Shown here one piece after another: positions 36,837 through 64,000 of a stretch of DNA of 64,000 nucleotides (position 1 is its first letter; every line of letters starts with the position of its first letter). Source of the stretch: Terebella lapidaria. Its lineage: Eukaryota > Annelida > Polychaeta > Terebellida > Terebellidae. The position numbers and the translations under genes were made by a program. The stretch covers positions 24,861,462 through 24,925,461 of the forward strand of contig OX424557.1 of assembly GCA_949152475.1 (NCBI GenBank). Direction: 5' to 3'. The notes under the pieces were generated by a model. It saw only the letters and a list, made by a program, of their open reading frames with translations, did no database searches and was not told where the DNA came from.

Positions 36837-39800
36837 CTGGCAAAGGGTACATTTAAAAAAAAAATTCATGTCACATTTTATCAACTCACTATCAAGTGAT
36901 GGGTGCATATGATTATATCCAATATATCTAATTTAAAACAAGTATCAAAATATTGTAAAAATATACTGTATAAAGTTCCTCAATTTTGCTGCAATAATTG
37001 ATTACCATATAACATACCGTAAGCAAGAATCCTGCAACGCACAAGGGGATACAAGTACCGGGACCATTGCATAATATCTGAAAATCATCATGGGCAAAAA
37101 ACATAATCATGAGAAGGATGCATAATTCAGGTATACTAGTAAAGTTGTCATTTTGCTATTGACAAATTGGCAATCAGCGCTGCACTCACGAAGTCTGGTC
37201 TGCTGGACAAGACGAGAGGGAAGCTGTAGAGGCTGGCATACAGTGTTGTAAAGACGGATGTGATGTACGATTGTTTGACTTCTCTGCTCCTCGGAACGCT
37301 GCGCACTGAATACTGGATAGGAAAGATTTGATTTTGGTACATTGTATAAGTATAATGTCACATGTACCAACATGATTATATTTAAGCCCACTATATGTAG
37401 ACACTATTAGTCTATTACCTAAATCGATCCACAAAGTTTGCACGTAGCATTACTGCAACTCAGTATAGGGGAGTCTACATTTCATAAAACATATTTTTCG
37501 AGTCCCTGTTTTTTTTTTGTAATAAATCATAATTTTATCAGTTTTCAACTCCTTGAAATATTAACAGGGTTCCTACTTCAGATTCTTAGCGGCCTGACAT
37601 GGGCGAATGAAAAAAAACCTTCTTCACTTCAAGTCAGGCCCCTTTGAGAAAAAGATGTTATTCGGGAGAATTTCATGATGGATTCTATAGATTATCATAG
37701 AAAAACCAGAGGCTCACAGGTCAATGTCACAAATTTTATCACCAAACCCTTTATATTCAGAAATACAGATTTATAAATATATGTTCAAACGCAAAATTGG
37801 TTGTCTTTGCTGATATGCTACCTGAATGGGAGTGGAATTGCGATGTTTCTCAGATGTGTGAATTTTTTCTTTGCTCATTTGGTCTGTGTTGGCAACAACA
37901 TATTCTCTTGGACAGTAAACTGAGCTGGATAAAGTCTCTGCCAGCTGCAGTATCTCCGTGGTATGACCTCCTGTGAGGAAAGAAAATTTAGAACCCAGGT
38001 AGACCCTAGTTTGCGTTCGATTGTCATATAATCACCAGAAACAGTGGAAAATATGGGGATATACTGTATATATGTAATGTAATGTAATGTAATGTTTATT
38101 CCAAACCAAGTTGTACAGTTATATACAGTTGCTACATGGCAATTTTAACACATAATTTACAAAGTGGTTTGGGGATACCTAAGAGATACACAGTATCTGT
38201 AAGATAAGGCACCCCGTAGTGGAATTCATCCGTTGACACAAAGAGATAAAAAACTAGACGTCAAGGCCTAAAGGCCTTGGAGGCATTTCAGGGTGAAGCA
38301 TGAAAAAAACAAAATGCTGACATGATAAGTTCCCAATGAGACCGTTTCCGAGATATCGACAGAAACGAAAAATGCCGACTCAGCGAAAAAATTTAAGGTC
38401 AAGGTCAAAGGTCATCCACCATACCCTATGTACATGTTTGTCTAGGGCGACGAGTCCGAAAATAACATCCGTTTCGCTCTACGACGCACCATTTCCGAGA
38501 TATCGACGAAAACGAAAAATGCCGACTCAGCGAAAAAATTTAAAGTCAAGGTCAAAGGTCATCCATAATACCCCTAAGACATGTTTGTCTAGGGCGACGA
38601 GTCCGAAAATAACGTCTGTTTCGCTCTACGACGCACCGTTTCCGAGATATCGACGAAAACGAAAAATGCCGACTCAGCGAAAAAATTTAAGGTCAAGGTC
38701 AAAGGTCATCCATAATACCCCTAAGACATGTTTGTCAAGGGTGACGAGTCTTAAAATAACGTCCGTTTCGCTCTACGACGCACCGTTTCCGAGATATCGA
38801 CGAAAACGAAAAATGCCGACTCAGCGAAAAAAATTGAAGGTCAAAGGTCATCCATAATACCCTATATACATCTTTGTCTGGGGCGACGAGTCCAAAAATA
38901 ACATCCGTTTCGCTGTACGACGTACCATTTCCGAGATATCGACGAAAACGAAAAATGCCGACTCAGCGAAAAAATTTAAGGTCAAGGTCAAAGGTCATCC
39001 ATAATACCCCTAAGACATGTTTGTCAAGGGTGACGAGTCTTAAAATAACGTCCGTTTCGCTCTACGACGCACCGTTTCCGAGATATCGACGAAAACGAAA
39101 AATGCCGACTCAGCGAAAAAAATTGAAGGTCAAAGGTCATCCATAATACCCTATATACATCTTTGTCTGGGGCGACGAGTTAAAAAATAACATCCGTTTC
39201 GCTGTACGACGTACCATTTCCGAGATATCGACGAAAACGAAAAATGCCGACTCAGGGAAAAAATTTAAGGTCAAGGTCAAAGGTCATCCATAATACCCTT
39301 AAGACATGTTTGTCTAGGGCGACGAGTCCGAAAATAACGTCCGTTTCGCTCTATGACGCACCGTTTCCGAGATATCGACGAAAACGAAAAATGCCGACTC
39401 AGCGAAAAAATTTAAGGTCAAGGTCAATGGTCATCAATAATACCCTTAAGACATGTTTGTCTAGGGCGACGAGTCCGAAAATAACGTCCGTTTCGCTCTA
39501 CGACGCACCGTTTCCGAGATATCGACGAATACGAAAGATGCCGACTCAGCAAAAAAATTAAGGTCAAGGTCAAAGGTCATCCATAATACCCCTAAGACAT
39601 GTTTGTCTAGGGCGAGGAGTCCGAAAATAAGGTCCGTTTCGCTCTACGACGCACCGTTTCCGAGATATCGACATAAACGAAAAATGCCGACTCAGCGAAA
39701 AAATTTAAGGTCAAGGTCAAAGGTCATCCATGATACCCCTTAGACATGTTTGTCTAGGATGACGAGTCTGAAAATAACGTCTGTTTCGCTCTACGACGCA

Positions 39801-42800
39801 CCGTTTCCGAGATATGCATGAGAGCCTCAAGGATGACTCAGCTAAAATTATTTCGAGCCCTAGGTCAAAGGTCGTTTGACGAATCGGCCTCAAAATCAAT
39901 AGGCTTCTTCCCTGGTGATATATGAACCTCCATGCAAAGTTCCACAGTCATTGCCATAACACTTTTTGAGTTATCGTGCGGAAACCAGAAACATTGATTT
40001 CATCCTCACGGACCACACGGACCCCGGAGCCGGCTCAAAAACAATAGGCATCTTCCACACAACATTTCTGACCAGCAGTGAAAATTTGGCGAAGATACAT
40101 CGAGGCAAACTGAAGTTATCGTGCGGAAACCAAAAAGTGAAAAAAAAAAAAAAAAAAAAAAAAATTAGCCCAAAGGCTAAGATAGGTTACCGGACAATTT
40201 TGGTTTGGCCATGGCAGCATTGGCAGGTAACAGACCTTGAGATTTACCAATCAAGGTTCGCAGTGTAAACATATGACCTTGGGATTTACCAATCAAGGTC
40301 ATCCGTATGAACTTCGATGTAACCATTACATGTATGTGTGCGGCATTTGATATTCTATATGTTGGGTGGAATCGTTTAGGCCGCTCAGGTCAATTTACAC
40401 ATTCCAAGTCAGACATTTGGCACTCAAGGTCATCTGACGTCAAGTTCAAGGTCATCATTAGTTGTGCCATATATGTCTTCCTATATGTTCATAATGCAAA
40501 CAGGAGCTCTATCTGCAAGCATTTCATCTACAAAGGCAAATCTGGGCATTTTTTGACCCCAAAATGGCTGTTTTGACCTTTCAAGGTCATCCAAGGTCAA
40601 ATTCGAGGTCACCACACAAGTCGCCATATATCACTTCCGATTTGAAAGTGCCAATTTCTAAGCTCTATCTTCAAGCGTTCTATGAGTACAGTCCTGACAG
40701 CTCCCATTATGAAGGAAAAAAGTGCCGAAAATTTTTTTCAAAGGGTGAAAATTTTTTTTTGCCTAGAAATGGCCCAAAATGGATAGTAATGTTATTTGGG
40801 GCGAAAAAAAATTTTTTCGCCGACTCGTCAAAAATTCAAAATGGCCGCCACACTGAGATCGGCGATTCAAGGGCAACAAAACTTATACACATCGCAGAGG
40901 TATATAAGAGAAATCTTTTTAAGCAAAAATCTCAAAACTGATCAGAGAGTTTTTGAGAAAATACAGACCAGGTGCAAATTTGAGTGTTTTTCGACCCAAA
41001 AATGGCTGTTTTGACCTTTCAAGGTCATCCAAGGTCAAATTCAAGGTCACCACACAAGTCGCCATATATGACTTCCCATTTGAAAGTGCCAATTTCTAAG
41101 CTCTATCTTCAAGCGTTCTATGAGTACAGTCCGGACAGCTCCCATTATGAAGGAAAAAAGTGCCGAAAATTTTTTAAGTCCAAAATTTTTTTCAAAGGGT
41201 GAAAATTTTTTTTTGCTCTAGAAATGGCCCAAAATGGATAGTAATGCGATCTGGGGCGAAAAAAAATTTTTTCGTTGACCCGCCAAAAATTCAAAATGGC
41301 CGCCACACGAAAACCGGCAGATTTAGGGCAACCAAACTTATACATATCACAGAGGTATATGAGGGGAATCTTTTGAAACCAAAAACTCAAAACTGATCAG
41401 ACAGTTTTTGAGAAAATGGCCGTCAAAGTCCAAAATTGAGCGTTTTTCGACAAAAACGGCCGCCATTTTGAAAAAAATGCGAAAATCAAAAAACAAAAAA
41501 ATACCTCCTTCTCAAAATATTTTTAGGCATTTTTGTGCAAAATTTCAGAAAGATTCGATCGTTAACTTTAAAGATAAAAATGTTAACGCCGGACGGACGG
41601 ACGGACGGACGGACGGACGACGGACACAACGCCACGCCAATAGGTTATCGGACCAAAGGTCCGGTAACCTAAAAAAAAAAAAAAACTTTTTTTTTGACAA
41701 AACCATAAAGGCATTTCTGCTGAAATGCCTTAATAATAACCAAATGAAATTACTGCAAAAATTAGCGGAATGAACAGATTAGTCATGATACAATATAAAA
41801 CGATGCTATCATATGTCTATGCCGGATTGGTTATGTTACTGACTCTATATTGACCAATTGAAAATATGCATGCGCATAAGAATGGAAATCGGAGCGACGA
41901 TATATTGAGGACGAGTGAGGATCAACATCAATACTTTTTAATATAATACGTTTTGATTGATTTCATGAATAATTTGAGTGATGTAGAATTTCTGATTAGT
42001 TTGGATAGCCTCGACCATAAAATAGGACCTTGATGAATAAATGTTTTGGAGGTAAAATAATCACGTATTTCAATTCGCGGATCATTTCTGTGTCTAGTGT
42101 TATGAGTATGAACGTCGAATTGCGTGCGAAAAATGTCAAGCAAGGGTGGCGGCAAATCAAGCCTACTATGCAAGTACATAAGCCTGGAGAGTTGAATCTC
42201 CACAACATCAGTAAGTTTTGGAATATTTAGTTTAGAAAATAGTGGCGAAGTATGAGTGTTATAAGGCACTTTCATAATGCTTCGAATACATTTTTTCTGG
42301 AGAATTTCAAGTTTGTGCAAAAGTTTCTTGGTAGCCGAACCCCATATCATCGTGCCATATAACAGGTGCGAATGAACAATGCTGAAATACAATTGTCTGA
42401 GATTTGGGGTAGAAAGATATTGTTTGCATCTATTCAGTGCATATGCGCCGCTGCTTATTTTGCTTGCAACATAATTGATATGATCTTCCCATATAAACTT
42501 ATCATCAATATAAATTCCCAAAAATTTGGTTGTTTTGACACAGGATATTTTACAATTTCCTAGTAATAAATCGTTAATTTTGTTGTATTTGGGAAACGAG
42601 TTTCGAGATCCAAAATGAATGAAATTTGTTTTCAGTACATTTAATGACAACTTATTTGAGGAAAACCAGTCCGACAAAGTTGAGAGATCGCTTTCCATTT
42701 GTTGTTGCAGTTGCTTTATATTCTTTGAAGAGTGGTAAACTGTTGTATCATCAGCAAAGAGAATACATTGAGAGAACATGAGTGTTTTAGGAAGATCATT

Positions 42801-43309: not shown

Positions 43310-43491
43310 GTTGACAAGCCGACAGCTTGGAATTTGTGGACTGCGAGCACACAATGAAGTGTGCGTTATAAATGGCAAGCCGAATTTAAATATTGAAATT
43401 TCACCGGTATCTGGTCCAAAGATGCTTTTTACTTTGAAGCAATAACAAAAGCATACAGCCATTGGCCTTTTTGGGGGGTCTGACAATTTTT
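43310..43491 (-). promoter_or_regulatory. ALG14 5'UTR / proximal promoter interval (182 bp)
   Basis: Only this short unique interval separates the ALG14 start from the terminal palindrome of a repeat element. No TATA box is evident. Transcription must begin either here or inside the repeat. Confidence 0.5.
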
Positions 43492-44657
43492 AGGTTACCG
43501 GACCTATGGTCCGATAACCTATTGGCATGGCGTTGTGTCCGGCGTCCGTCCGTCCGTCATCCGTCCACATTTTTATCTTTAAACCTTCTTTTTTTTTTAA
43601 TCTTTTCTGAAATTTTGCACAAAAATGGCTAAAAATATTCCCATGAAAGGTTATTTTTTGTTTTTTGATTTTCGCATTTTCCTCGAAATGGCGTCCATTT
43701 TCGTTGAAAAATGCCCAATTTTGGACTTTGACGGCCATTTTCTCAAAAACTGTTCAGACAGTTTTGAGATTTTTGTTTCAAAAGATTCCCCTCATAGACC
43801 TCTGTGATGTCTATAAGTTTGGTTGCCCTTGAATCGCTGGTCTGCGTGTGGCGACCATTTTGAATTTTTGACGAGCCGGCGAAAAAAAAAGTTTCACCCC
43901 AAATCGCATTACTATCCATTTTAGCCCATTTCCAGGGGAGAATTTTTTTGCACCTTTGAAAAAATTTTTGGACTTGAAAATTTTCGTCACTTTTTTCCTT
44001 CATAATGGGAGCTGCCAGAACTGTACTCATAGAACGCCTGAAGATAGAGCTTAGAAATTGGCACTTTCAAATGGGAAGTCATATATGGCGACTTATGTGG
44101 TGACCTTGAATTTGACCTTGGATGACCTTGAAAGTCAAAACAGCCATTCTTGGGTCGAAAATGCCCAAATTTGCACCTTGTCTGTCTTTCCTCGAAAACT
44201 GTTCAGACAGTTTTGAGATTTTTGTTTCAAAAGATTCCCCTTACGGACCTCTGTGATGTGTATAAGTTTGGTTGCCCTTGAATCGACGGTCTGCGTGTGG
44301 CGGCCATTTTTAATTTTTGACGAGTTGCTGAGAAACATTTTTTTTCACCCCAAATCGCATTACTATCCATTTTGGGCCACTTCCAGGGGGAAAAAATTTC
44401 ATCCTTTGAAAAAAATTTAGTTTTTCCTTCATAATGAGAGCTGCCAGAACTGTACTGCCAGAACTGTCGAAAAATGCCCAGATTTGCCTCTATAGATGAA
44501 ATGCTTGCGGATAAAGCTTATGTTCGCCTTATGAACATATAGGAAGACATATATGGCACAACTAATGATGACCTTGAACTTGACCTCAGATGACCTTGAG
44601 TGCCAAATGTCTGACTCGGAATGTGTACATTGGCCTGAGCGGCCTATACACTTGCAC
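43492..44657 (-). mobile_element. Pearl/HINE-like element, copy B, inverted relative to copy A
   Basis: Starts with the 29-bp terminal palindrome (43,492-43,520), then GGCATGGCGTTGTGTCC and a (GTCC)n run, which are the reverse complement of copy A's right end. It continues through the same core sequence, with TGACCTTGAATTTGACCTTG at about 44,100, to about 44,657, and lacks roughly the first 200 bp of copy A. It lies immediately upstream of the ALG14 5' end. Copies A and B therefore form an inverted pair of 1.2-1.4 kb flanking ALG14 exon 1 and the LINE. Confidence 0.65.
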
Positions 44658-45289: not shown

Positions 45290-46827
45290 TTTTACACTAA
45301 AACGGCCTCAGAACTGAACAATGGGCATCCTGAGCCAATTCGCTTGAAAATAATTCTACTTTCGGTTTTGTGTAATTTGACACCACAGGTGTAATCTGAT
45401 ACCAAACCACACCTAGTATAAGAACATTCTTCTTCCGGTTTGGTGTAATTTGACACAACAGCTGCATTCTGATACCAAACATCACCTATTATATTGCAAA
45501 TTAGCCCTCCGGGTGAGAAAATAACGTTCTTTTTGCTCTATGATCAATATTTAACGAGATGTGGAGGTTTTTATGGAAAGTGGGTGATAATAAGGGAAAG
45601 TATCATTTTTAGGCCTTGAAAGACACCAAAATGGAAAAATAACTGATCCTTGGGCATCCGGAGCCCATTTGCTTGAAAAATAATTCTACTTCCGGTTTGG
45701 TGTAATTAGACACCATAGGTGTAATCTGATAACAAACCACACTTAGTTTAATGCCAATTGGCCCTTTGGGTCCCAAAATAACGTCCTTTTTGCTCTACGA
45801 TCAATATTTAATAAGATATGGAGGTTTTTATGGGAAGTGAGTGATAATAGGGGAAAGTATCACTTTTGGGCATTGAAAGACACCAAATTGGCTTAATAAC
45901 TTATCCTTGGGCATCCTGAGCCCATTTGCTTGAAAAACAATTCTACTTCCGGTTTGGTGTAATTTGACACCACAGGTGTAATCTGATACCAAACCACACT
46001 TATTATATTGCCAATTAGCTCTATGGGTCCGAAAATAGCGTCCTTTTTGCTCTATGATCAATATTTATTGAGATATGGAGGTTTTTATGGAAAGTGGGTG
46101 ATAATAGGGGAAAGTATCAATTTTTGGCCTTGAAACACACCAAAACGGCCTTATAACTGATCCTTGGGCATCCTGGGCCCATTTGCTTGAAAAATAATTC
46201 TACTTCCGGTTTGGTCTAATTTGACACCACAGGTGTAATCTGATACCAAACCACACCTAATAAATTGCCAATTAGCCCTATGGGTCCGAAAATAACGTCC
46301 TTTTTGCTCTACGATCAATATTCACTGAGATATGGAGGTTTTCATTGAAAAGTGGGTGATAATAGGGGAAAGTATCAATTTTTGGTCTTCAAACACACCA
46401 AAATGGCCTAAAAACTGATCCTTGGGCATCCTGAGTCCATTTGCTTGGAAAATAATTCTACTTCCGGTTTGGTGTGAGTTGACGTCATCATAGTGAAATA
46501 CATGCTAATTTGCATAATCTATGATTTTTATATATTATACCTATGTGACTGATCCGAAAATAATGTTATTTTTGCTCTATCTGCAATAGTTTTTGAGATA
46601 TGGACCTATTAAGTATATCATTGGCTTAAATGGCAGGCGATTTTCAAAACGTTCCTGTGACCTTGACCTTTGACCTACGACCTTGAAGAACAATAGGAAA
46701 TCTAACGATTTGGATGTGCATGCCTGGTGAAAATTTCACAGAAATCAGACGAAAATTGCGCCCCCTAGAGGGCGAACGGACACACAAACAAACGAGGGGC
46801 CATAGGCCCGGCAGTTGACGAATTAGG
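45290..46827 (+). repeat. 257-bp tandem array and right end of its element
   Basis: TCCGGTTTGGTGTAATT recurs at 45,434, 45,691, 45,948, 46,205 and 46,463 (period 257-258), with an extra shortened unit near 45,362. Each unit has CCTTGGGCATCCTGAGCC, a GACACCACAGGTGTAATCTG near-palindrome, and GCTCTACGATCAATATTTA. The element then runs through TGACCTTGACCTTTGACCT and CCCCCTAGAGGG to a CACACAAACAAAC run, the palindrome GGGCC-ATA-GGCCC (46,797-46,809) and GGCAGTTGACGAATT. The same family returns at 63.5-64.0 kb. Confidence 0.8.
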
Positions 46828-49073
46828 AAGGTTACCGGACAATATATGTTTTAGATATATGTTTTAGTGAGATATTAGCCATTTTGTGCTCTGACCTGAA
46901 TTTTCAAATCATGAGAAGATTTAACATATACCATTTCCTATACATGTATGTCCAAAGCTGTAAAGTCGATAAAAAGCGATATATTAGCCACATTGTGCTC
47001 TGACCTTGAAAATGAGGTCAAAGGTCAAATGTCAAGGTCAAGGTCACAGAAGATAGAACTCGAGTTAATCTACAATATGAACTTGGTTTGAAGTCTCTAG
47101 GGCGATTAGAACCGAAGTTATGGGCATTTATGTGTTTTTGACATTTTATTTGACCTTGACCTTGACCTTTGACCTAGTGTCCCCAAATTTCACCCATTTC
47201 CAAGTATACACAAAAGCATTTCATACGTACAATTTGGTCATGATACGTCCAAAACTGTGGCTTGTAGAGCGGTAATATACGAAGAACAAACTAGATTTTG
47301 ATGATAACAATAGAATGCAAAGCAGTTTTCCGTTGCCATGGCAACATTTTACAGGCGAATCTGACTAAAAGTTTGGTGATGATCCGACCTAAACTGTGAT
47401 ATGTTTCAGTTAGTTTGAAAATTTGACCTTAAAGTTTTGAATGTGTCCTCATTTTTGCGACCAAGTTCAAAGTCAATTATGAAATTGACATGTACGTATG
47501 ATTACCATGCCTCTTCTGAATGATATGGTACGAATTTTATGAGACTACAAGAATTCAAGCAGATGTTATAAGCGAAAAGGTGATTTTCTGGGATTTCGAT
47601 GACCTTGACCTTGACCTTTGACCTTTGTATTTCAATTCGTAGAGGTCAATGCTATTAATACGCATGTCAAGTTTCAAGATATTCCATACAGTATTGACGC
47701 TGTACCGAAATTTCGGTAATTTGACGTTTATGACGTCATTGTGACGTGAGTGTACGTCGCAGCGCCGAAAATAAGGTATCACTGCAATCAGGGGCCCAAG
47801 ACCTTTCCAACGATATACTACTCGATATGATTCGCTGACCTTCGTACCTGACCTTGACATTCACCTCATGGCAAACTCTCAAGGTCAAGCTCAAATGCCG
47901 AGGTCAAGGTCACAGAAGATAGAACTCGAGTTTATCTACAATATGAACTTGGTTTGAAGTCTCTAGCACGAATAGAACCGGAGTTATGGCCACTTATGTG
48001 TTTTTAACATTTTGCGTGACCTTGACCTTGACTTTGGACCTTGAGTCACAAAAATTGTGCATTGTCTGTGCATGAATATATATATTGTATCTGTAAAATT
48101 TCATCAGAATCAAACAAAATTTGTGGACACTATGACCGTTTGAAATTTTGAAAAATTAACGTTTATGACGTCACTGTGACGTCAATAAACGTCACAGCTC
48201 AAAACTGATGAAAAGGTATGTACCAGGGAATCAAGACCTTTCATTTGATATACTACTTGATAGGTTTCAGTTAGTTTTAAAATTTGACCTTGAAGTTCTC
48301 CTCATATGACCTAATTTTCCTGACCAAGTTCAAGGTCAATCATGAAATTGACATATAGGTTCGATTGCTATACCTCTTCTGAACGATATGGTTTTATTTT
48401 CATGAACCTACGACAATTCAAACGGATGTTATTACCGGAAACGTGTTTTTCTGGGATTTCGATGACCTTGACCTTGACCTTTGACCTTTGCACTTAAATT
48501 CGTAGAGGTCATTGCTGTCAGTATGCATATCAAGTTTCAAGAGATTCCATATAGTATTGACGATGTGATGGCCTTTTGAAATTTCGGGAATTTGACGTTT
48601 ATGACGTCATTGTGACGTCAGTATACGTCGCAGCGCCGAAAATAGGGTATCACTGCGATCAGGGGGTCAAGACCTTTCCAACGATATACTACTCAATATG
48701 CTGCGCTGACCTTCGTACTTGACCTTGACTTCGACCTGGGGCGAACTTCTCAAGGTCAAAGTCAAATGTCAAGGTCAAGGTCACAGACGATAGAACTCGA
48801 GTGTATCTACAATATGCACTTGGTCAGAAGTCTCTAGATCGATTAGAACCGGAGTTATGACCACTTATGTGTTTTCAACGTTTTGTGTGACCTTGACCTT
48901 GACCTTTGACCTAGGGTCACCAAAATTCACCGGTTTCCAGGTATATACCTAGGCATTGTATCCGAACGATTTGGTGATGATCCGGCCAAAACTGTGGCCT
49001 GTAACGTGCAAACAGACAAACGAGGGGCCATAGGCCCGGCAGTTGACGAATTAGAAAGGTTACCGGACTAAGG
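46828..49073 (+). repeat. AGGTCA-rich unit D (2.25 kb) of a three-unit tandem block
   Basis: Begins AAGGTTACCGGACAATATAT and ends with GGGCC-ATA-GGCCC (49,025-49,037), GGCAGTTGACGAATT and a short duplicated AGGTTACCGGACTAAGGA. The inside has repeated TGACCTTGACCTTTGACCT and AAGGTCACAGAAGATAGAAC blocks, a perfect RFX X-box, GTTGCCATGGCAAC (47,332-47,345), and CRE palindromes TGACGTCA (47,731; 48,166; 48,602; 48,613). Non-coding. The left terminus is shared with copy A at 40,184. Confidence 0.75.
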
Positions 49074-50240
49074 AAGGTTACCGGACAATATATGTTTTAG
49101 ATATATGTTTTAGTGAGATATTAGCCATTTTGTGCTCTGACCTCAATTTTCAAATCATGAGAAAATTTAACATATATCATTTCCTATACAAGTATGTCCA
49201 AAGCTGTAAAGTTGATAAAAAGTGATATATTAGCCACATTGTGCTCTGACCTTGAAAAGGAGGTCAAAGGTCAAATGTCAAGGTCAAGAAGATAGAACTC
49301 GAGTTAATCTACAATATGAACTTGGTTTGAAGTCTCTAGGGCGATTAGAACCGAAGTTATGGCCATTTATGTGTTTTCGACACTTTATGTGACCTTGACC
49401 TTGATCTTTGACCTTTGTACTACAATTCGTTGTCGATCAATGCTATCAATGGGTATATCAAGTTTCAAGATACTGCATTTAGTATTGACGTTGTTATGGC
49501 CTTTTGAAATTTCGGAAATTCAACCTGTATGATGCAGTCAGATTTTGATGATGCCAAAAACAAACGTAAAATACAACAGTTTGCTATGAAAATTGTAGCT
49601 CGATCAAATAGTTCATCCGAAGACACACTGAAATATTCCACTCATAGTCATGAAACGCTTTTTTTGTTATCTCCATAAAGGCACCAAGTAGTAGATTCAT
49701 CGTGTTTTCTGCTTCAGGGTTGATTTTGTTTTAATATCGCAAACAATAGAATTAGATAAAAGGGTGACTGTGGAAAGCATATAAGAATTAATAAAAAAAA
49801 AACACTCAGAAACAGAAAAAGTCATTTAGACTGGAATTTAAAAAGAAAAGAAAATGGCAATAGGAATCGAACCCCTGACCCCGCGCATTAACACCTAGCG
49901 CGTTTACTGACTGAGCCAATCTGTCACTTGGAAGTTGATGCGTGTGAAGTGTATACCGTACAACAGACCGCGCTCAGAAAAAATGCTGGAATATCCCATG
50001 GCTGCGCATTGGTGTGGCTGCTGTGGCGACAGCGTGAGGAATTTTTGAGATTTTTTGTGACGTCTATACTTGACCGAATTTAACGAAAATTGAACCATTT
50101 CCAGTCTATAACATAAAGAATAACCTTGTAAATTTTCGTGAACATATCTCCAGAATTGTGGACGGTATCGTGCTAACAGACATCTTACTGATGGACATAC
50201 AATTACGAGGGGCCATAGGCCCGGCAGTTGACGAATTAGG
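49074..50240 (+). repeat. AGGTCA-rich unit E, shortened and with foreign interior
   Basis: Shares the first 450 bp and the end of units D and F, including palindrome 50,210-50,222. From about 49,530 to 50,190 the interior is different DNA. That segment contains a tRNA-derived sequence (see 49,863-49,920). The unit is either a deletion product with an insertion or a distinct subfamily. Confidence 0.65.
49863..49920 (-). repeat. tRNA-derived sequence (SINE head or tRNA pseudogene)
   Basis: On the minus strand, an A box (TGGCTCAGTCAG, 49,918-49,907) is followed 33 bp later by a perfect B box (GGTTCGATTCC, 49,873-49,863). Together they make an internal Pol III promoter. Acceptor-stem bases do not pair and the T stem has mismatches, so it is not a working tRNA. 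A T-rich run (complement of 49,793-49,803) lies downstream. The likely body extends to lower coordinates; its ends are not defined. Confidence 0.65.
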
Positions 50241-52594
50241 AAGGTTACCGGACAATATATGTTTTAGATATATGTTTTAGTGAGATATTAGCCATTTTGT
50301 GCTCTGACCTCAATTTTCAAATCATGAGAAGATATAACATATATCATTTCCTATACATGTATGTTGAAAGCTGTAAAGTCGATAAAAAGCGATATATTAG
50401 CCACATTGTGCTCTGACCTTGAAAATGAGGTCGAAGGTCAAATGTCAAGGTCACAGAAGATAGAACTCGAGTTAATCTACAATATGAACTTGGTTTGAAG
50501 TCTCTAGGGCGATTAGAACCGAAGTTATGGCCATTTATGTGTTTTCGACACTTTATGTGACCTTGACCTTGACCTTGACCTTTGACCTAGGGTCCTCAAA
50601 TTTCACCCATTTGCAAGTATATACATAAGCATTTTATACGTACAATTTGGTCATGATACGTCCAAAACTGTGGCTTGTAGAGCGGTAATATACGAAGAAC
50701 AAACTAGATTTTGATGATAACAATAGAATGCAAAGCAGTTTTTCCGTTGCCATGGCAACATTTTTCAGGCGAATTTGACTAAAATCAATGGGTGCCTGGC
50801 TTTGAGCCTAAAAAGTGTTCCCATAAAGTTTGGTGATGATCCGACCTAAACTGTGATATGTTTCAGTTAGTTTGAAAATTTGACCTTGAAGTTTTGAATG
50901 TGTCCTCATTTTTGCGACCAAGTTCAAGGTCAATCATAAAATTGACATGTACATATGATTACCATGCCTCTTCTGAATGATATGGTTCAAATTTTATGAG
51001 ACTACAACAATTCAAGCAGATGTTATAACCGAAAAGGTGTTTTTCTAGGATTTCGATGACCTTGACCTTGACCTTTTACCTTTGTATTTCAATTCGTAGA
51101 GGTCAATGCTATTAATATGCATGTCAAGTTTCAAGATATTCCATACAGTATTGACGCTGGTATGGCCTTTTGAAATTTCGGTAATTTGACGTTTATGACG
51201 TCATTGTGACGTGAGTGTACGTCGCAGCGCCAAAAATAAGGTATCACTGCAATCAGGGGCCCAAGACCTTTCCAACGATATACTACTCGATATGATTCGC
51301 TGACCTTCGTACTTGACCTTGACATTCACCTCATGGCAAACTCTCGAGGTCAAGGTCAAATGCCAAGGTCAAGGTCACAGAAGATAGAACAAGAGTTTAT
51401 CTACAATATGAACTTGGTTTGAAGTCTCTAGCACAAATAGAACCGGAGTTATGGCCACTTATGTGTTTTTAACATTTTGCGTGACCTTGACCTTGACTTT
51501 GGACCTTGAGTCACAAAAATTGTGCATTGTCTGTGCATGAATATATATATTGTATCTGTAAAATTTCATCAGAATCAAACAAAATTTGTGGACACTATGA
51601 CCGTTTGAAATTTTGAAAAATTAACGTTTATGACGTCACTGTGACGTCAATAAACGTCACAGCTCAAAACTGATGAAAAGGTATGTACCAGGGAATCAAG
51701 ACCTTTCATTTGATATACTACTTGATAGGTTTCAGTTAGTTTTAAAATTTGACCTTGAAGTTCTCCTCATATGACCTTATTTTCCTGACCAAGTTCAAGG
51801 TCAATCATGAAATTGACATATAGGTTCGATTGCTATACCTCTTCTGAACGATATGGTTCAAATTTCATGAACTTACGACAATTCAAACGGATGTTATTAC
51901 CGGAAATGTGTTTTTCTGGGATTTCGATGACCTTGACCTTGACCTTTGACCTTTGCACTTAAATTCGTAGAGGTCATTGCTGTCAATATGCATATCAAGT
52001 TTCAAGAGATTCCATGCAGTATTGACGATGTTATGGCCTTTTGAAATTTCTGGAATTTGACGTTTATGACGTCATTGTGACGTCAGTGTACGTCGCAGCG
52101 CCGAAAATAGGGTATCACTGCGATCAGGGGGTCAAGACCTTTCCAATGATATATTACTCGATATGCTGCGCTGATCTTCGTACTTGACCTTGACTTCGAC
52201 CTGGGGCAAACTTCTCAAGGTCAAGGTCAACTGTCAAGGTCAAGGTCACAGACGATAGAACTCGAGTGTATCTACAATATGCACTTGGTTAGAAGTCTCT
52301 AGAACGATTAGAACCGGAGTTATGACCACTTATGTGTTTTCAACGTTTTGTGTGACCTTGACCTTGACCTTTGACTTAGGGTCACCAAAATTCACCGGTT
52401 TCCAGGTATATAACTAGGCATTGTATCCATACGATTTGGTGATGATCCGGCCAAAACTGTGGCCTGTAACGTGCAAACAGACAAACAAACAGACAAACAG
52501 ACAAACCGAACTGACCAACATAGTTGACGAATTTTTAATTCGTCAACTAACAAACAGACAAACGAGGGGCCATAGGCCCGGCAGTTGACGAATT
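50241..52594 (+). repeat. AGGTCA-rich unit F (2.35 kb)
   Basis: The full-length partner of unit D in the same order. It has the left end AAGGTTACCGGAC, an RFX X-box at 50,746-50,759, CRE palindromes near 51,200, 51,630 and 52,070, and TGACCTTGACCTTTGACC blocks. It ends with an (ACAGACAA)n run, a 25-bp perfect palindrome of arms GTTGACGAATT around TTT (52,523-52,547), and GGGCC-ATA-GGCCC (52,567-52,579). Most differences from D are single bases, so D and F are close relatives. Confidence 0.75.
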
Positions 52595-53456
52595 CGCAAA
52601 CTGTTGTTCCAATGTAAAGGTCAAGGTTATAGTAATGGGGCCACCCTTTAGACATTGTACATGTTGGGATGAATGATCCGAGATAAATACATCTCAGGAA
52701 GTCGAAATTTTAATTTTGGCAAGCAGATAACATTGGGCTAAAGGCCAAACTTGTCAAAATCTTTCTTCGTATTAGGAGCACCAAAATCACGTGGCCTGGA
52801 GCGCTCGTTCCGCAGAATATATCCTTCAAGCTAGAATATGGACGGTCAAGTGCTAATGAAGAAAAAAGCGAACAAGAGGCTACAGGCCACACCCATGCCG
52901 GAAATCTTACGTTATTACCTGATACACTGGTGTTTCTAAATATACCTGTTAATATTGTGTTTATAAATTTTTACTGATTTCATTTTGTATCATTTATTAC
53001 CAAGATCAAATGTTATATTCAGGTTGGAAAACATATTAATATCTTAAGATAATATGTATGACGTCAATGGCATTTCACCAATCAGTTGAAACATGATATA
53101 CGATTGATAGTGCTACACATTCTCGGTCTCAATGTGATTGCTTTTTGAATTTTTAAATTTGTTTTGTACTTTGGCAATGATGAGAGATGGGGATTTTGCC
53201 AATGTTTGGCAGTGTCTAGTGACATCATCATTTGGCTCTCGAAATTGGGCTGATTTAGGTTGGAGGCAGATTGTTACATCTGGTAAGTGTGGTTTGGATT
53301 ACACGCAAATTGTGGCTGCATTGTTGCGAACAATGATTTCGCCAAGTAATAAAAGAAACTCAACAAAAATATATCCGGTGCATGAACAGGACCTTTGGTC
53401 CTCGAACAAATTACCGCTAAAAACCGGGAATGAGGTTGACTTCTACGCCGGTACAT
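52595..53456. other. Spacer between the D-F block and the 3,374-bp array
   Basis: No gene recognised. It contains further end-type palindromes, TTGGGC-TAAA-GGCCAA (52,733-52,748) and GGACC-TTT-GGTCC (53,389-53,401). A plus-strand frame (53,138-53,479) has no recognisable motif. The last 70 bp are distantly related to the DNA before the next half-unit at 55,920. Confidence 0.5.
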
Positions 53457-54350: not shown

Positions 54351-54381
<31 letters not shown>

Positions 54382-56830
54382 CACAAACAAACCGAACTGA
54401 CCAACATAGTTGGCGAATTTTCAATTCGTCAACTAACAAACGAGAGGCCATAGGCCACACACTTGCCGGAATGAGTACGCAATTATGAGGTCATTTGTCG
54501 TCAATTATTTACTGCAAACTTACTGTGAATGGAATTTTTAAATATGCATGAAAAAATCGTGTTCATATATGTTATATTATAACCGGACAAGATCATAATA
54601 TCTTCAAATGATGAGTTTCCTCTGAAATTTTACCGATTTGTTGCCACATAAACGTCAATTACGTCAAAACGGATATATCGATTGTGCTAAAAATTGATAG
54701 AGACCATCACAGGACGACTCCACATCGTTTACATATGCTAGATATGCAGTAAATGTTATAACTTCGCACCTCTGACATTCAAATGGCCTAAATGTCAGTC
54801 TGAAATCACATTTGACGTCATTATGACGTCAATTGACGTCCGATTCCAAAAATGACAACATATTTGGAAAGTACTCCCGAAGACCTTTCAAACGAGCTGC
54901 TACTCGATATTTTTGCAAAAGGTCAAGGTCAAGGTCATTTTTGAGGTCAACTTCGACCTCAGGCGCTTGCAAAGGCTATCGGTCAGACGCCTTAGCTGTA
55001 AATGCAAAAGTTGTTAGGCTAAGTGAGTGCAATACTGTGGATTTACTTTCGTGTCTCTATCTTGCTTACTTCCTGAGATATAGTGACCCACATGGTTTTC
55101 AATTGCAGGTCAATATTGACCTTGACTTTCGACCTTTGACCTTGAAATATTCTGGAACAAAAGAACTTATCCTTGACTATAAACTGGTGTATTATCAGAT
55201 TTTCACGCACATTATTGACGCTTTTATCAGCATCAACAGCTTGAAACATGCAATTTCGCTTATAATGGGGCCGATTTCGTTGCCATAGAAACGTCAATTA
55301 CGTCATAACGAATTGGCCGATCGGGCTAAAAATTGACATTGAGCATGAGGGACCGGTCCCACATCGTTTCCAAGCATCAGATCGAAAATCGGAGGAGGTG
55401 ACCTCCAAGGTCAAATATTCGACCTCGGGCGAACTTCTCAAGGTCAAGGTCAAAGGTCAAGGTCAAGGTCACAGAAGATAGAACTCGAGTTTATCTACAA
55501 TATGAATTTGATTTGAAGTCTCTACGACCATTAGAACCGAAGTTATGGCCACTTATGTGTTTTCGACATTTTGCTTGACCTTGACCTTGACCTTTGACCT
55601 AGACACACCAAAATAGGACGTTTTCTGGCCGGTATCCTACAGATTGTGCACACGAATTTTGAGAGCTTTTAATCAAGAACTGTGGACGCTAGAGTGCGAA
55701 CAAACAAACAAACACACCCATCCATCCACAAACAGACCAACATACTTGCCGAAATCTTTAGATTCCGGCAAGTAACAAACAAACGGAACTGACCAACATA
55801 GTTGTCGAATTTTCAATTCGTCAACTAATAAAGCTCCGCAAGTAGAAGAGACCCTGCGTATATCCGTTTCATGTACAGGATCTTTGGTTTTTAGATGAAT
55901 GGTGCTCCCTACGCGTTTTCGTCACCCCCGATAGTGCTGATATAAAAGATCCCCTCGCTTGCCACAGATTGTATTTAGACAAGGGTTTTAGGCTTTGTTA
56001 CATCACTTGTGCATCACTAAGTTGGAAAACCACAGAAATGTTGCTTTAGACCAGTATTCAGATGCATACAAGGTATATTGTATTACTACGCTACCGAGTG
56101 TTGATATTAGAGACGGTACGTGTGCACAGGGGGTAATCGTTTCCACATCATATTGAATTGTGAACGGGCTGACCAACAGTTTTACCCCAGGTCTCTTTAA
56201 GTCCTAATATCTCAGCGAGTTTTCAAGTTATTTTGAAAATAAAAAGTGCACCTTAAACTAGAAATAACACTGCATTTTTCTACATAAACAGCTTCAAAAT
56301 TCAATATCCAATGATTTTTTTAAAATTGGATCCAGAAGAAAATGAAATGTATCCGTAGAATCCGGAATCCGGATCCGATCCGGATCAAACTTGCAATGTC
56401 TGTAGAGGTTGTCATTCTACACATGTGACTAAAATTTCAAGAGAATTCAATAAAAATTAAACGAGTTATGAATTTTTGAAAAATCGCCCCATGTTAAAGA
56501 TAGGGATTTTTCGAGTTTTCAAGAATTTTTGATGACGTCATCAATAAACCGATTTTCTTCAAAAACTTTCGGTGTCCTTCCTGGGTGAATACCTACCTAT
56601 CAGAAAAATTTCGTGATGCTCGCACTAAAACTGTGGCCTGTATCGTGCAAACAGACAGACAGACAGACAGACAAACAAACAAACAAACAAACGGAACTGA
56701 CCAACATAGTTGTCGAATTTTCAATTCGTCAACTAATAAAGCTCCGCAAGTAGAAGAGACCCTGCGTATATCCGTTTCATGTACAGGATCTTTGGTTTTT
56801 AGATGAATGGTGCTCCCTACGCGTTTTCGT
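53457..56830 (+). repeat. 3,374-bp tandem unit, copy 1
   Basis: A composite unit. Half-unit a (about 53,457-54,475) begins CCGATAGTGCTGATATAAAA, contains GATCCGGATC palindromes and a TGACGTCATCA site, and ends with an (ACAG)n run, an AATTCGTCAAC hairpin and GGCC-ATA-GGCC (54,446-54,456). Segment b (about 54,476-55,782) is AGGTCA-rich and related to units D-F (AAGGTCACAGAAGATAGAAC; TATGGCCACTTATGTGTTTT). Half-unit a' (about 55,783-56,690) is about 90% like a and ends in (ACAG)n/(ACAA)n. The following 140 bp repeat 55,783-55,922 exactly, so a 908-bp sub-period is embedded. Non-coding; the 151-codon frame at 54,833 reads through repeat words. Confidence 0.9.
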
Positions 56831-57724: not shown

Positions 57725-57755
<31 letters not shown>

Positions 57756-60204
57756 CACAAACAAACCGAACTGACCAACATAGTTGGCGAATTTTCAATT
57801 CGTCAACTAACAAACGAGAGGCCATAGGCCACACACTTGCCGGAATGAGTACGCAATTATGAGGTCATTTGTCGTCAATTATTTACTGCAAACTTACTGT
57901 GAATGGAATTTTTAAATATGCATGAAAAAATCGTGTTCATATATGTTATATTATAACCGGACAAGATCATAATATCTTCAAATGATGAGTTTCCTCTGAA
58001 ATTTTACCGATTTGTTGCCACATAAACGTCAATTACGTCAAAACGGATATATCGATTGTGCTAAAAATTGATAGAGACCATCACAGGACGACTCCACATC
58101 GTTTACATATGCTAGATATGCAGTAAATGTTATAACTTCGCACCTCTGACATTCAAATGGCCTAAATGTCAGTCTGAAATCACATTTGACGTCATTATGA
58201 CGTCAATTGACGTCCGATTCCAAAAATGACAACATATTTGGAAAGTACTCCCGAAGACCTTTCAAACGAGCTGCTACTCGATATTTTTGCAAAAGGTCAA
58301 GGTCAAGGTCATTTTTGAGGTCAACTTCGACCTCAGGCGCTTGCAAAGGCTATCGGTCAGACGCCTTAGCTGTAAATGCAAAAGTTGTTAGGCTAAGTGA
58401 GTGCAATACTGTGGATTTACTTTCGTGTCTCTATCTTGCTTACTTCCTGAGATATAGTGACCCACATGGTTTTCAATTGCAGGTCAATATTGACCTTGAC
58501 TTTCGACCTTTGACCTTGAAATATTCTGGAACAAAAGAACTTATCCTTGACTATAAACTGGTGTATTATCAGATTTTCACGCACATTATTGACGCTTTTA
58601 TCAGCATCAACAGCTTGAAACATGCAATTTCGCTTATAATGGGGCCGATTTCGTTGCCATAGAAACGTCAATTACGTCATAACGAATTGGCCGATCGGGC
58701 TAAAAATTGACATTGAGCATGAGGGACCGGTCCCACATCGTTTCCAAGCATCAGATCGAAAATCGGAGGAGGTGACCTCCAAGGTCAAATATTCGACCTC
58801 GGGCGAACTTCTCAAGGTCAAGGTCAAAGGTCAAGGTCAAGGTCACAGAAGATAGAACTCGAGTTTATCTACAATATGAATTTGATTTGAAGTCTCTACG
58901 ACCATTAGAACCGAAGTTATGGCCACTTATGTGTTTTCGACATTTTGCTTGACCTTGACCTTGACCTTTGACCTAGACACACCAAAATAGGACGTTTTCT
59001 GGCCGGTATCCTACAGATTGTGCACACGAATTTTGAGAGCTTTTAATCAAGAACTGTGGACGCTAGAGTGCGAACAAACAAACAAACACACCCATCCATC
59101 CACAAACAGACCAACATACTTGCCGAAATCTTTAGATTCCGGCAAGTAACAAACAAACGGAACTGACCAACATAGTTGTCGAATTTTCAATTCGTCAACT
59201 AATAAAGCTCCGCAAGTAGAAGAGACCCTGCGTATATCCGTTTCATGTACAGGATCTTTGGTTTTTAGATGAATGGTGCTCCCTACGCGTTTTCGTCACC
59301 CCCGATAGTGCTGATATAAAAGATCCCCTCGCTTGCCACAGATTGTATTTAGACAAGGGTTTTAGGCTTTGTTACATCACTTGTGCATCACTAAGTTGGA
59401 AAACCACAGAAATGTTGCTTTAGACCAGTATTCAGATGCATACAAGGTATATTGTATTACTACGCTACCGAGTGTTGATATTAGAGACGGTACGTGTGCA
59501 CAGGGGGTAATCGTTTCCACATCATATTGAATTGTGAACGGGCTGACCAACAGTTTTACCCCAGGTCTCTTTAAGTCCTAATATCTCAGCGAGTTTTCAA
59601 GTTATTTTGAAAATAAAAAGTGCACCTTAAACTAGAAATAACACTGCATTTTTCTACATAAACAGCTTCAAAATTCAATATCCAATGATTTTTTTAAAAT
59701 TGGATCCAGAAGAAAATGAAATGTATCCGTAGAATCCGGAATCCGGATCCGATCCGGATCAAACTTGCAATGTCTGTAGAGGTTGTCATTCTACACATGT
59801 GACTAAAATTTCAAGAGAATTCAATAAAAATTAAACGAGTTATGAATTTTTGAAAAATCGCCCCATGTTAAAGATAGGGATTTTTCGAGTTTTCAAGAAT
59901 TTTTGATGACGTCATCAATAAACCGATTTTCTTCAAAAACTTTCGGTGTCCTTCCTGGGTGAATACCTACCTATCAGAAAAATTTCGTGATGCTCGCACT
60001 AAAACTGTGGCCTGTATCGTGCAAACAGACAGACAGACAGACAGACAAACAAACAAACAAACAAACGGAACTGACCAACATAGTTGTCGAATTTTCAATT
60101 CGTCAACTAATAAAGCTCCGCAAGTAGAAGAGACCCTGCGTATATCCGTTTCATGTACAGGATCTTTGGTTTTTAGATGAATGGTGCTCCCTACGCGTTT
60201 TCGT
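56831..60204 (+). repeat. 3,374-bp tandem unit, copy 2
   Basis: Identical to copy 1 in every stretch I compared, including all incidental open frames, each displaced by exactly 3,374 bp. Confidence 0.92.
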
Positions 60205-61098
60205 CACCCCCGATAGTGCTGATATAAAAGAGCCCCTGGCTTGCCAGAGATTGTATTTAAACAAGAGTTTTAGGCTTTGTTATATCACTTGTGCATTACT
60301 GAGTTAGAAAACCAAAGAAATGTTGCTTTAGATCAGTATTCAGATGCATACAAGGTATATTGTATTACTACGCGACCGAGTGTTGATATTGGAGACGGTA
60401 CATGTGCACAGGGGGTAATCGTTTCCACATCTTATTGAATTGTGAACAGGCTGACGAACAGATTTACCCCCGGTCTCTTTAAGTCTTAATATCTCATCGA
60501 GTTCTCAAGTTATTTTGAACATGAAAAGTGCATCTTAAAGTAGAAATAACACTGCATTTTTCCATATAAACAGCTTCAGAATTCAATGTTCAATGATTTT
60601 TTTAAAAATTGGATCCAAAAGAAAATGAGATGTATCCGTAGAATCCGGATTCCATATCCGATCCGGATGAAATTTTGTCAGTTTTCGGACCATAGTAGTC
60701 TGCCACTTTGTAGGAAAAATCAAATTGAAATATGCATAATGGACCGAAATGTAATATAAAATATATGTTAAATGGAGTTTACAATGTTAAATTCAAATAG
60801 CTGTCAAATCCGTAATCCGGATCCGATCCGGATCAAAATTAGGATGTATGTAGAGGATGTCATTCTACACATGTGACTAAAATTTCAAGAGAATTCAATA
60901 AAAATTAAACGAGTTATGATTTTTTGAAAATTCGCTCCATGTTAAAGATAGGGTTTTTTCGAGTTTTCAATGATTTTTGGTGACGTCATCAATGAACCGA
61001 TTTCTTTCAAAAACGTTCGGTGCCGTCCCAGGGCGGATACCTATCTATCAAAAAAGTTTCGGGATGCTAGCTCGAAAACTGTGGCCTGTATCGTGCTA

Positions 61099-61129
<31 letters not shown>

Positions 61130-63437
61130 CACAAACAAACCGAACTGACCAACATAGTTGGCGAATTTTCAATTCGTCAACTAACAAACGAGAGGCCATA
61201 GGCCACACACTTGCCGGAATGAGTACGCAATTATGAGGTCATTTGTCGTCAATTATTTACTGCAAACTTACTGTGAATGGAATTTTTAAATATGCATGAA
61301 AAAATCGTGTTCATATATGTTATATTATAACCGGACAAGATCATAATATCTTCAAATGATGAGTTTCCTCTGAAATTTTACCGATTTGTTGCCACATAAA
61401 CGTCAATTACGTCAAAACGGATATATCGATTGTGCTAAAAATTGATAGAGACCATCACAGGACGACTCCACATCGTTTACATATGCTAGATATGCAGTAA
61501 ATGTTATAACTTCGCACCTCTGACATTCAAATGGCCTAAATGTCAGTCTGAAATCACATTTGACGTCATTATGACGTCAATTGACGTCCGATTCCAAAAA
61601 TGACAACATATTTGGAAAGTACTCCCGAAGACCTTTCAAACGAGCTGCTACTCGATATTTTTGCAAAAGGTCAAGGTCAAGGTCATTTTTGAGGTCAACT
61701 TCGACCTCAGGCGCTTGCAAAGGCTATCGGTCAGACGCCTTAGCTGTAAATGCAAAAGTTGTTAGGCTAAGTGAGTGCAATACTGTGGATTTACTTTCGT
61801 GTCTCTATCTTGCTTACTTCCTGAGATATAGTGACCCACATGGTTTTCAATTGCAGGTCAATATTGACCTTGACTTTCGACCTTTGACCTTGAAATATTC
61901 TGGAACAAAAGAACTTATCCTTGACTATAAACTGGTGTATTATCAGATTTTCACGCACATTATTGACGCTTTTATCAGCATCAACAGCTTGAAACATGCA
62001 ATTTCGCTTATAATGGGGCCGATTTCGTTGCCATAGAAACGTCAATTACGTCATAACGAATTGGCCGATCGGGCTAAAAATTGACATTGAGCATGAGGGA
62101 CCGGTCCCACATCGTTTCCAAGCATCAGATCGAAAATCGGAGGAGGTGACCTCCAAGGTCAAATATTCGACCTCGGGCGAACTTCTCAAGGTCAAGGTCA
62201 AAGGTCAAGGTCAAGGTCACAGAAGATAGAACTCGAGTTTATCTACAATATGAATTTGATTTGAAGTCTCTACGACCATTAGAACCGAAGTTATGGCCAC
62301 TTATGTGTTTTCGACATTTTGCTTGACCTTGACCTTGACCTTTGACCTAGACACACCAAAATAGGACGTTTTCTGGCCGGTATCCTACAGATTGTGCACA
62401 CGAATTTTGAGAGCTTTTAATCAAGAACTGTGGACGCTAGAGTGCGAACAAACAAACAAACACACCCATCCATCCACAAACAGACCAACATACTTGCCGA
62501 AATCTTTAGATTCCGGCAAGTAACAAACAAACGGAACTGACCAACATAGTTGTCGAATTTTCAATTCGTCAACTAATAAAGCTCCGCAAGTAGAAGAGAC
62601 CCTGCGTATATCCGTTTCATGTACAGGATCTTTGGTTTTTAGATGAATGGTGCTCCCTACGCGTTTTCGTCACCCCCGATAGTGCTGATATAAAAGATCC
62701 CCTCGCTTGCCACAGATTGTATTTAGACAAGGGTTTTAGGCTTTGTTACATCACTTGTGCATCACTAAGTTGGAAAACCACAGAAATGTTGCTTTAGACC
62801 AGTATTCAGATGCATACAAGGTATATTGTATTACTACGCTACCGAGTGTTGATATTAGAGACGGTACGTGTGCACAGGGGGTAATCGTTTCCACATCATA
62901 TTGAATTGTGAACGGGCTGACCAACAGTTTTACCCCAGGTCTCTTTAAGTCCTAATATCTCAGCGAGTTTTCAAGTTATTTTGAAAATAAAAAGTGCACC
63001 TTAAACTAGAAATAACACTGCATTTTTCTACATAAACAGCTTCAAAATTCAATATCCAATGATTTTTTTAAAATTGGATCCAGAAGAAAATGAAATGTAT
63101 CCGTAGAATCCGGAATCCGGATCCGATCCGGATCAAACTTGCAATGTCTGTAGAGGTTGTCATTCTACACATGTGACTAAAATTTCAAGAGAATTCAATA
63201 AAAATTAAACGAGTTATGAATTTTTGAAAAATCGCCCCATGTTAAAGATAGGGATTTTTCGAGTTTTCAAGAATTTTTGATGACGTCATCAATAAACCGA
63301 TTTTCTTCAAAAACTTTCGGTGTCCTTCCTGGGTGAATACCTACCTATCAGAAAAATTTCGTGATGCTCGCACTAAAACTGTGGCCTGTATCGTGCAAAC
63401 AGACAGACAGACAGACAGACAAACAAACAAACAAACG
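60205..63437 (+). repeat. 3,374-bp tandem unit, copy 3 (lacks last 141 bp)
   Basis: Again without visible difference from copies 1 and 2 until 63,437, the end of the ACAA run. There it departs into GAGAAAACATTGGCC instead of the ACGGAACTG that continues the earlier copies. The departure point is exactly the end of half-unit a', which suggests the array's last member keeps the original element border. Confidence 0.9.
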
Positions 63438-64000
63438 AGAAAACATTGGCCAGTAGGCCAAAACTTGGCGAAATACTTGTATAATATCCATACCATATCT
63501 ATGCTAACACATATGTACCATTATCATGATTATATCAGTAAGTTGTGATCCCGGTCAAAATATGATATCTGTTTTTCTCTATGAGCAATATTTACTGAAA
63601 TGTAGTAATCTTTATGTCCAATGGACAATAATAGCGACATGGTCACTTTTTGGCCTTTAAACACATAATAATGGCACCGTAACTGAAGTGTGGTCATGCT
63701 GAATACATTTGCTTGAAAAATAATTCTACTTTTGGTTTGCTGTAATTTGACACCACAAGTATAATCTAACGTGTTTTGTTCTACGATCAATCTTTACTGA
63801 GATATACTGATTTCAATGTTAAGAATGTAACTTTTTGGCCTTAAAACACACCAGAATAACATGATAACTGAACCATGGGCATTCTGAACTCATTCGCTTG
63901 AAAAAAAAATTTACTTCCGGTTTTGTGTAATTTGACACCACAGGTGCAATCTGATACCAAACCATCCATACCATAGTGGAATATAACCCTCTAGGTCTGA
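63438..64000 (+). repeat. Second member of the 257-bp-array family, running off the window
   Basis: Opens with the palindrome TTGGCC-AGTA-GGCCAA (63,446-63,461) and CTTGGCGAAATACTTG. It then has diverged units marked by TTGCTTGAAAAATAATTCTAC and GTAATTTGACACCACA at about 63,711 and 63,898, the same family and orientation as 45,290-46,500. Unit spacing here is shorter (about 188 bp), and the copies are more diverged. Confidence 0.75.

Follow-up and report, generated by a model that had tools for sequence, protein, structure and literature searches.

Compact hairpins in the Terebella lapidaria genome as likely ends of non-autonomous Helitron2-type elements, with a paired arm change in one family

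Most of the compact palindromes that recur in the window (the whole stretch of 64,000 nucleotides analysed here) very probably form the structural 5' and 3' ends of HINEs, non-autonomous Helentron/Helitron2 elements that belong to several families and lie mostly on the minus strand. We propose that the long palindromes, including those at 41642 and 43492 and others absent from the first-pass annotation (for example at 52521), represent a 5' inverted repeat paired with its complement, and that the short GGCC-type palindrome at the opposite end acts, by analogy with the known group, as a stop signal for rolling-circle copying by a Rep-helicase-endonuclease. Selection on the stem, or hairpin-templated mutation, would keep this palindrome paired when an arm base changes, and the elements insert at T-rich sites. 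The first-pass annotation had treated twelve hairpins as a single structure; they are instead 3' palindromes and 5' inverted-repeat hairpins of the same elements.

The hairpins are genuine and much more numerous than chance would produce. A strict scan, accepting perfect arms of at least five bases with CC/GG flanking an A/T-rich loop of 3-4 bases, finds 13 hairpins in the whole window, 12 of them within 38-64 kb, whereas 100 dinucleotide shuffles of that part average 0.3 and never exceed 2; the one strict hairpin in 1-38 kb is near expectation (shuffle mean 0.69). Ten of the twelve positions first described as near-identical are among these strict hairpins. Only two families account for the four GGGCC/ATA and the three GGCC/ATA sites, which leaves about six independent architectures rather than twelve. 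The hairpin at 52733 is imperfect (TTGGGC/TAAA/GGCCAA, one mismatch), and the one at 53389 is missing from related copies of its surroundings near 55880 and 56785, with no element end demonstrated there. The palindromes whose outer starts were annotated as 41642 and 43492 span 41641-41671 and 43491-43521, and the four-base-armed hairpin at 54446 has two further copies, at 57820 and 61194, that had escaped annotation. Element ends account for nine of the 12 strict hairpins in 38-64 kb, since those at 48907 and 63615 lie within element bodies and that at 53388 is not at a demonstrated border; the shorter or imperfect hairpins at 54446, 57820, 61194 and 52733 likewise mark ends.

Read on the minus strand, the elements share one order of parts: a 5' inverted repeat (for example AGTTGACGAATT, ACTTGCCGGAAT, AGGTTACCGGAC or AAGGCATTTC), a loop, the complement of the repeat, a microsatellite, the body, a 3' inverted repeat, the short palindrome and a T-rich flank. 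In most families the complement is followed by TATGTTGGTC or a similar sequence and then by a GTTT/GTCT/GTCC microsatellite, and the bodies frequently hold AAGGTCA-rich repeats or satellites. The two inverted repeats are placed asymmetrically: the 5' one is terminal, whereas the 3' one lies 19-27 bases inside its end. The GGCC-type palindrome lies directly downstream of the 3' subTIR, 0-10 bases from the 3' terminus in the termini read (types A, B, C and F1-F3). Elements begin with A[CG]TTG or AGGTTACC and end with CTCG or GGCTAA. From the order of subTIR, inverted repeat and microsatellite it follows that 41642 and 43492 are 5' hairpins, the latter in a plus-strand element; the remaining annotated hairpins, 53389 excepted, are 3' palindromes (Table 1). 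A reading in which the short hairpin opens plus-strand elements at their 5' end was rejected, as the same order fits the minus strand instead; most elements had initially been read backwards, with two parts merged. The ACAA/ACAG/ACGG runs noted beside the hairpins are genuine, but they are the 5' microsatellite in reverse and so belong to the 5' region of an element; where one lies near a 3' palindrome it is frequently the neighbouring element's, which is not so at 38262 and 40165.

Table 1. Element ends and related features in the window
Feature	Position	Strand	Remarks
Type K 3' palindrome (subTIR AAGGCATTTC)	38262..38279	-	Perfect 7-base arms, adjoining 3' subTIR; 5' end match at 41705-41734
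Type K 5' subTIR and complementary repeat	41705..41734	-	
Type K element	~38262-41733	-	Type A element inserted within
Type A 3' palindrome (subTIR AGGTTACCGGAC)	40165..40180	-	Followed by T run on minus strand; end recurs genome-wide
Type A 5' subTIR and complementary repeat	41641..41671	-	14-base arms, one mismatch; GTCC microsatellite after
Plus-strand type A 5' subTIR and complementary repeat	43491..43521	+	14-base arms, one mismatch; then GTCC microsatellite
Type B 3' palindrome (subTIR AGTTGACGAATT)	46797..46809	-	
Type B 3' palindrome	49025..49037	-	
Complete type B HINE	50206..52548	-	3' palindrome 50210-50222; 5' subTIR hairpin 52521-52549
Type B 3' palindrome	52567..52579	-	
Old ACTTG-type element, imperfect 3' palindrome	52733..52748	-	One stem mismatch
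Hairpin without demonstrated border	53388..53402	.	
Type B 5' subTIR hairpin, GTTT/GTCT microsatellite	54407..54435	-	Type C 3' end six bases before
Complete type C HINE, 1,333 bases	54441..55773	-	3' palindrome 54446-54456; 5' subTIR hairpin 55743-55774
Type B 5' subTIR hairpin and microsatellite start	55799..55827	-	Directly before type C element
Type C 3' palindrome, second copy in 3.37 kb tandem unit	57820..57830	-	
Type C 3' palindrome, third copy	61194..61204	-	
Type F2 3' palindrome (subTIR ACTTGGCGAAAT)	63446..63461	-	Then GTTT/GTCT microsatellite

The annotation's proposal that the hairpins mark element ends is borne out: most adjoin an inverted repeat, and a T-rich target follows. 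The elements carry the features of the Helitron2/Helentron (HINE) group, namely a 5' inverted repeat at or near the terminus and paired with a downstream complement, a subterminal 3' inverted repeat immediately before the 3' hairpin, a GTCY/GTTT microsatellite behind the 5' hairpin, and a T-rich insertion site. A canonical Helitron (Helitron1), with 5' TC, 3' CTRR and insertion at A/T, was rejected, as other ends and a T-rich target are seen. The first base of the 3' flank is T in 27 of 27 type C ends, where the search did not require T; the 40 ACTTG-type flanks start with TT by requirement of the pattern. The joined flanks of two loci (L009 and L014) align, across the junction, with paralogous HINE 5' regions that are uninterrupted there, though identity is only 80-87% and T runs on both sides can hide short duplications; several other junction-spanning matches are trivial, reflecting the flanks' own repeats. 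Among the sampled type C loci, eight distinct copies of 1,332-1,349 bases have both ends, and in the others no 5' end was recognised by motif. One of the eight (L010) comes from the same tandem array as the copies in the window, where positions 54407-63440 consist of about three near-identical repeats of a 3.37 kb unit holding a type C HINE among type B ends; the type C 3' end of this unit lies at C3:24915902, 24919276 and 24922650, and again at 24929284.

Beyond the window, too, the palindrome accompanies the 3' end in the families searched. A pattern blind to the hairpin, specifying the 3' subTIR and a terminal CTCGTT with the gap left open, has 199 matches in the genome against 0 for a reversed control, and among 100 listed of these, the gap holds perfect six-base arms in 98 and one damaged arm in 2 (judged by eye). 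Type A ends, searched as repeat plus T run, give 8,962 forward and 24,942 reverse matches, numbers that are inflated by T-run overlaps and include reverse-strand 5' ends; the matches divide mainly into 3' ends bearing TTAGCC/GGCTAA-like palindromes and 5' ends on the reverse strand, which carry A runs.

At least one change in the palindrome arms is a true compensatory change, as the first-pass reading had anticipated. The GGCC/TAT/GGCC palindrome of type C has 466 exact copies in the genome, and 200 type C ends carry a base other than G at the third position of the 5' arm. Among the 100 listed of these 200, 96 read GCCC/TAT/GGGC (type C'), with a matching change on both arms; the other four comprise two GACC/GGCC, one GTCC/GGCC and one GTCC/GGGC, so that three are changed on the 5' side only. 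A genome pattern search in the same context for ends with the third 3'-arm base changed and the 5' G kept returned 0. With 96 ends changed in pairs and none on the 3' side alone, the double change has spread and half-changed forms are few, which makes the type C switch a natural test of whether a Helitron2-type 3' hairpin is kept as a stem. The switch from C to C' may be one amplified event.

Pairing is also preserved across families. A comparison of 11 end types finds 60 of 66 arm cells paired, where shuffling gives a mean of 49.0 and none of 20,000 shuffles reaches the observed value, and in the eight types drawn from searches without a pairing requirement, three of which (A1, C and F2) are also on the first-pass list, 44 of 48 cells pair against 37.0 (p=0.00045); cell shuffling counts related families as independent in both comparisons. 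Double-sided changes occur at four of the six pair positions across the 11 end types. One position is unpaired in each of A2, A3, B, C and C', F4 has a T-G pair, and single type A copies show one-sided arm damage. The ACTTG-type families carry TTGGCC/GGCCAA arms in 98 of 100 listed ends and differ mainly in the loop (TTTA, TTCA, TACT, TCTA or TAAT).

The paired changes could have arisen by hairpin-templated (quasipalindrome) mutation, without selection on the stem, an account that we consider rather unlikely but the strongest of the alternatives. Quasipalindrome mutation is known in palindromes, the double change is seen as one subfamily, and the lack of any amplified single-side intermediate fits a one-step event; templated mutation alone nevertheless leaves unexplained why half-changed forms were not co-amplified, and why families that keep pairing differ in their outer pairs. 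It is less probable still that the ends are recognised through their primary sequence, a GGCC core, with the stem incidental. None of the 11 end types departs from the two innermost C-G pairs, and the ACTTG-type arms stay nearly constant as their loops vary, contrary to the initial suggestion that only the geometry is kept; these invariant inner pairs, together with the unpaired positions, indicate that sequence matters too and that pairing is imperfect. Against a purely sequence-based signal, both halves of the core have changed together in the amplified GCCC/GGGC form, one-sided changes are few (3 of 100 listed for the 5' arm, 0 found for the 3' arm), and types A1 and K have other pairs changed on both sides. 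An origin of the hairpins as unrelated palindromes in MITE-like cut-and-paste elements is hardly credible: both element ends do carry inverted repeats, but these are terminal at the 5' end and subterminal at the 3' end, the junctions read reveal no target duplication beyond T runs, and Rep-domain matches abound in the genome.

The genome encodes Rep and endonuclease domains of the kind expected of HINE partners. The Rep domain PF14214 gives 150 scored matches from 234 candidates in this genome and 0 in 14 control genomes, and many of these matches lie in open frames of more than 2,000 codons. Two scanned open-reading-frame stretches contain Helitron_like_N and OTU; in two loci (L051 and L042) an OTU-like protease domain lies upstream of the Rep domain in a single open frame. 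Among five sampled C-terminal pieces, Exo_endo_phos scores above the Pfam cut-off in three (L074, L072 and L078) and below it in L070 (E 4e-4), and L076 weakly matches a related family (E 0.037); going by the Rep and endonuclease stretches scanned, Rep and a C-terminal endonuclease are both encoded in this genome.

Rep genes and nearby HINEs lie almost always on opposite strands. In a first set of coordinates, this holds for all 40 pairs no more than 20 kb apart, for 94 of 95 up to 50 kb and for 165 of 174 up to 100 kb. A second set (type C/C' ends and 129 Rep rows) gives 35 of 35 pairs, involving 20 Rep genes, at the first limit, then 61 of 63 and finally 108 of 110; the pairs are not independent, because the clusters look duplicated. 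Of the 19 groups with both kinds in the first set, 16 are wholly opposite, two are mixed and one is same-strand. HINE orientation is mostly uniform within clusters, for example at C1:47.0-47.4 Mb, C4:19.9-20.2 Mb and C6:36.4-36.6 Mb, where the Rep genes run the other way. The flanks of five sampled Rep genes (3 kb upstream and 4 kb downstream, with more at three places) hold no HINE end that is clearly theirs, and none of four downstream loci has an open reading frame of 150 codons. An antisense Rep gene at C1:47.23-47.26 Mb has a HINE microsatellite on one side and a C' 3' end on the other, separated by about 21.7 kb, but the joins at this locus are not clean. Two Rep-locus copies (C17 and C4) share 3.05 kb on the 3' side at 99.9% identity; this stretch takes in about the last 0.1 kb of the open frame, which places the 3' border further out. 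Either the autonomous elements code antisense to their own ends, or Helentrons join the chains on the other strand.

Such chains are visible in the flanks of the 3' ends. Of 40 sampled ACTTG-type 3' ends, 23 are followed by a GTTT-type microsatellite leading into the body of another HINE and 3 by the 5' end of another HINE; the other 14 lie in different T-rich sequence, two of them beginning with a short GTTT run. For 27 type C 3' ends, which are best matches rather than a random sample and some of whose flanks may stem from duplications, a script assigned 8 to bodies, 5 to ends and 14 to neither, but two of these 14 (L010 and the first of L020) plainly start with a 5' end that the script's motif overlooked, raising the count to 15 of 27. 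Altogether, as a raw share, 41 of the 67 sampled 3' ends lie in another HINE's microsatellite or just in front of another HINE, all in one orientation; none of the 40 ACTTG-type or 27 type C flanks is positive for (AAAC)2, used to detect the opposite orientation. TTTGTTTGTTTG occurs 16,394 times, making up at most about 0.2 Mb of the 762 Mb genome. As nested insertion predicts, the 5' flank contains a HINE 5' region in five of the eight two-ended type C copies (L009, L010, L014, L021 and L029); that of L026 is another HINE's 3' end, and in those of L022 and L032 neither can be made out plainly.

We tentatively propose, as a reading with nearly as much for it as against it, that the microsatellite following the 5' hairpin serves HINEs as a favoured landing pad. 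Insertion there, or immediately before another element's 5' end, would keep the orientation of the resident element and thereby build one-way chains. Both ends of the host would stay intact, which could allow host and guest to move as a unit, and the autonomous elements of the clusters would carry Rep antisense to the chain. Tandem, satellite-carrying HINE regions may grow by way of such chains. Coates et al. reportedly described helitron-like elements disrupting (GAAA)n microsatellites, to go by the title as cited. Among titles and the openings of abstracts, we recognised no report of preferential one-orientation insertion of HINEs into HINE microsatellites.

The first-pass annotation regarded the ends as more varied than those of Helentrons, yet their layout is that published for Helitron2 and HINE elements. 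According to passages in Bao and Jurka (2013; PMC3627910), the Helitron2 group has hairpins at both ends, its asymmetric inverted repeats are set 0-2 bases inside the 5' end but about 20-30 inside the 3' end, compensatory changes separate the related Helitron-1N1_CQu and -1N2_CQu, some members have RepHel in the opposite orientation, and algal members insert after TTTT. The present elements share the two-end hairpins, the asymmetric inverted repeats and compensatory change, and differ from that account in that a compensatory switch within the 3' palindrome is here counted genome-wide. HINE/DINE-1/Helentron elements, as outlined by Thomas et al. (2014; PMC4067079), have subTIRs, an inverted repeat, a microsatellite, central repeats, a 3' palindrome, a T-rich target without evident duplication, and a Rep-helicase-endonuclease partner, with OTU in some. 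The order of subTIR, inverted repeat, microsatellite and 3' palindrome and the T-rich target are common to both, whereas the 3' subTIR lies 19-27 bases from the terminus here and 38-60 in the mite elements of that study. Coding on the strand opposite to the ends is described for a few Helitron2/Helentron elements (PMC3627910, PMC4067079). The Cg_HINEs of the Pacific oyster (PMC7492417) show the same layout as ours, with a 5' subTIR and inverted repeat, a GTCY-like microsatellite, satellite-like central repeats, a 3' subTIR and a palindrome, but are described as dispersed in both orientations, whereas many of the present HINEs lie in one-orientation clusters. Since two-end hairpins, compensatory change, the T-rich target, the microsatellite and opposite RepHel all appear in these published descriptions, the elements belong to a known group.

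Further repeats accompany the HINEs. Inside the type K element, window positions 38300-39800 hold a tandem satellite (by eye) with AAGGTCAAGGTCA motifs common to other HINE bodies. tRNA-like stretches, also seen by eye, occur in or beside HINE bodies (L006 2780-2870 and window 49860-49930) and are possibly SINEs. At 33983-34092 of the window, a GTATCCGCCGAAC hairpin is present in two tandem copies, one followed by GTCCGC repeats on the minus strand, possibly the 5' end of another HINE family.
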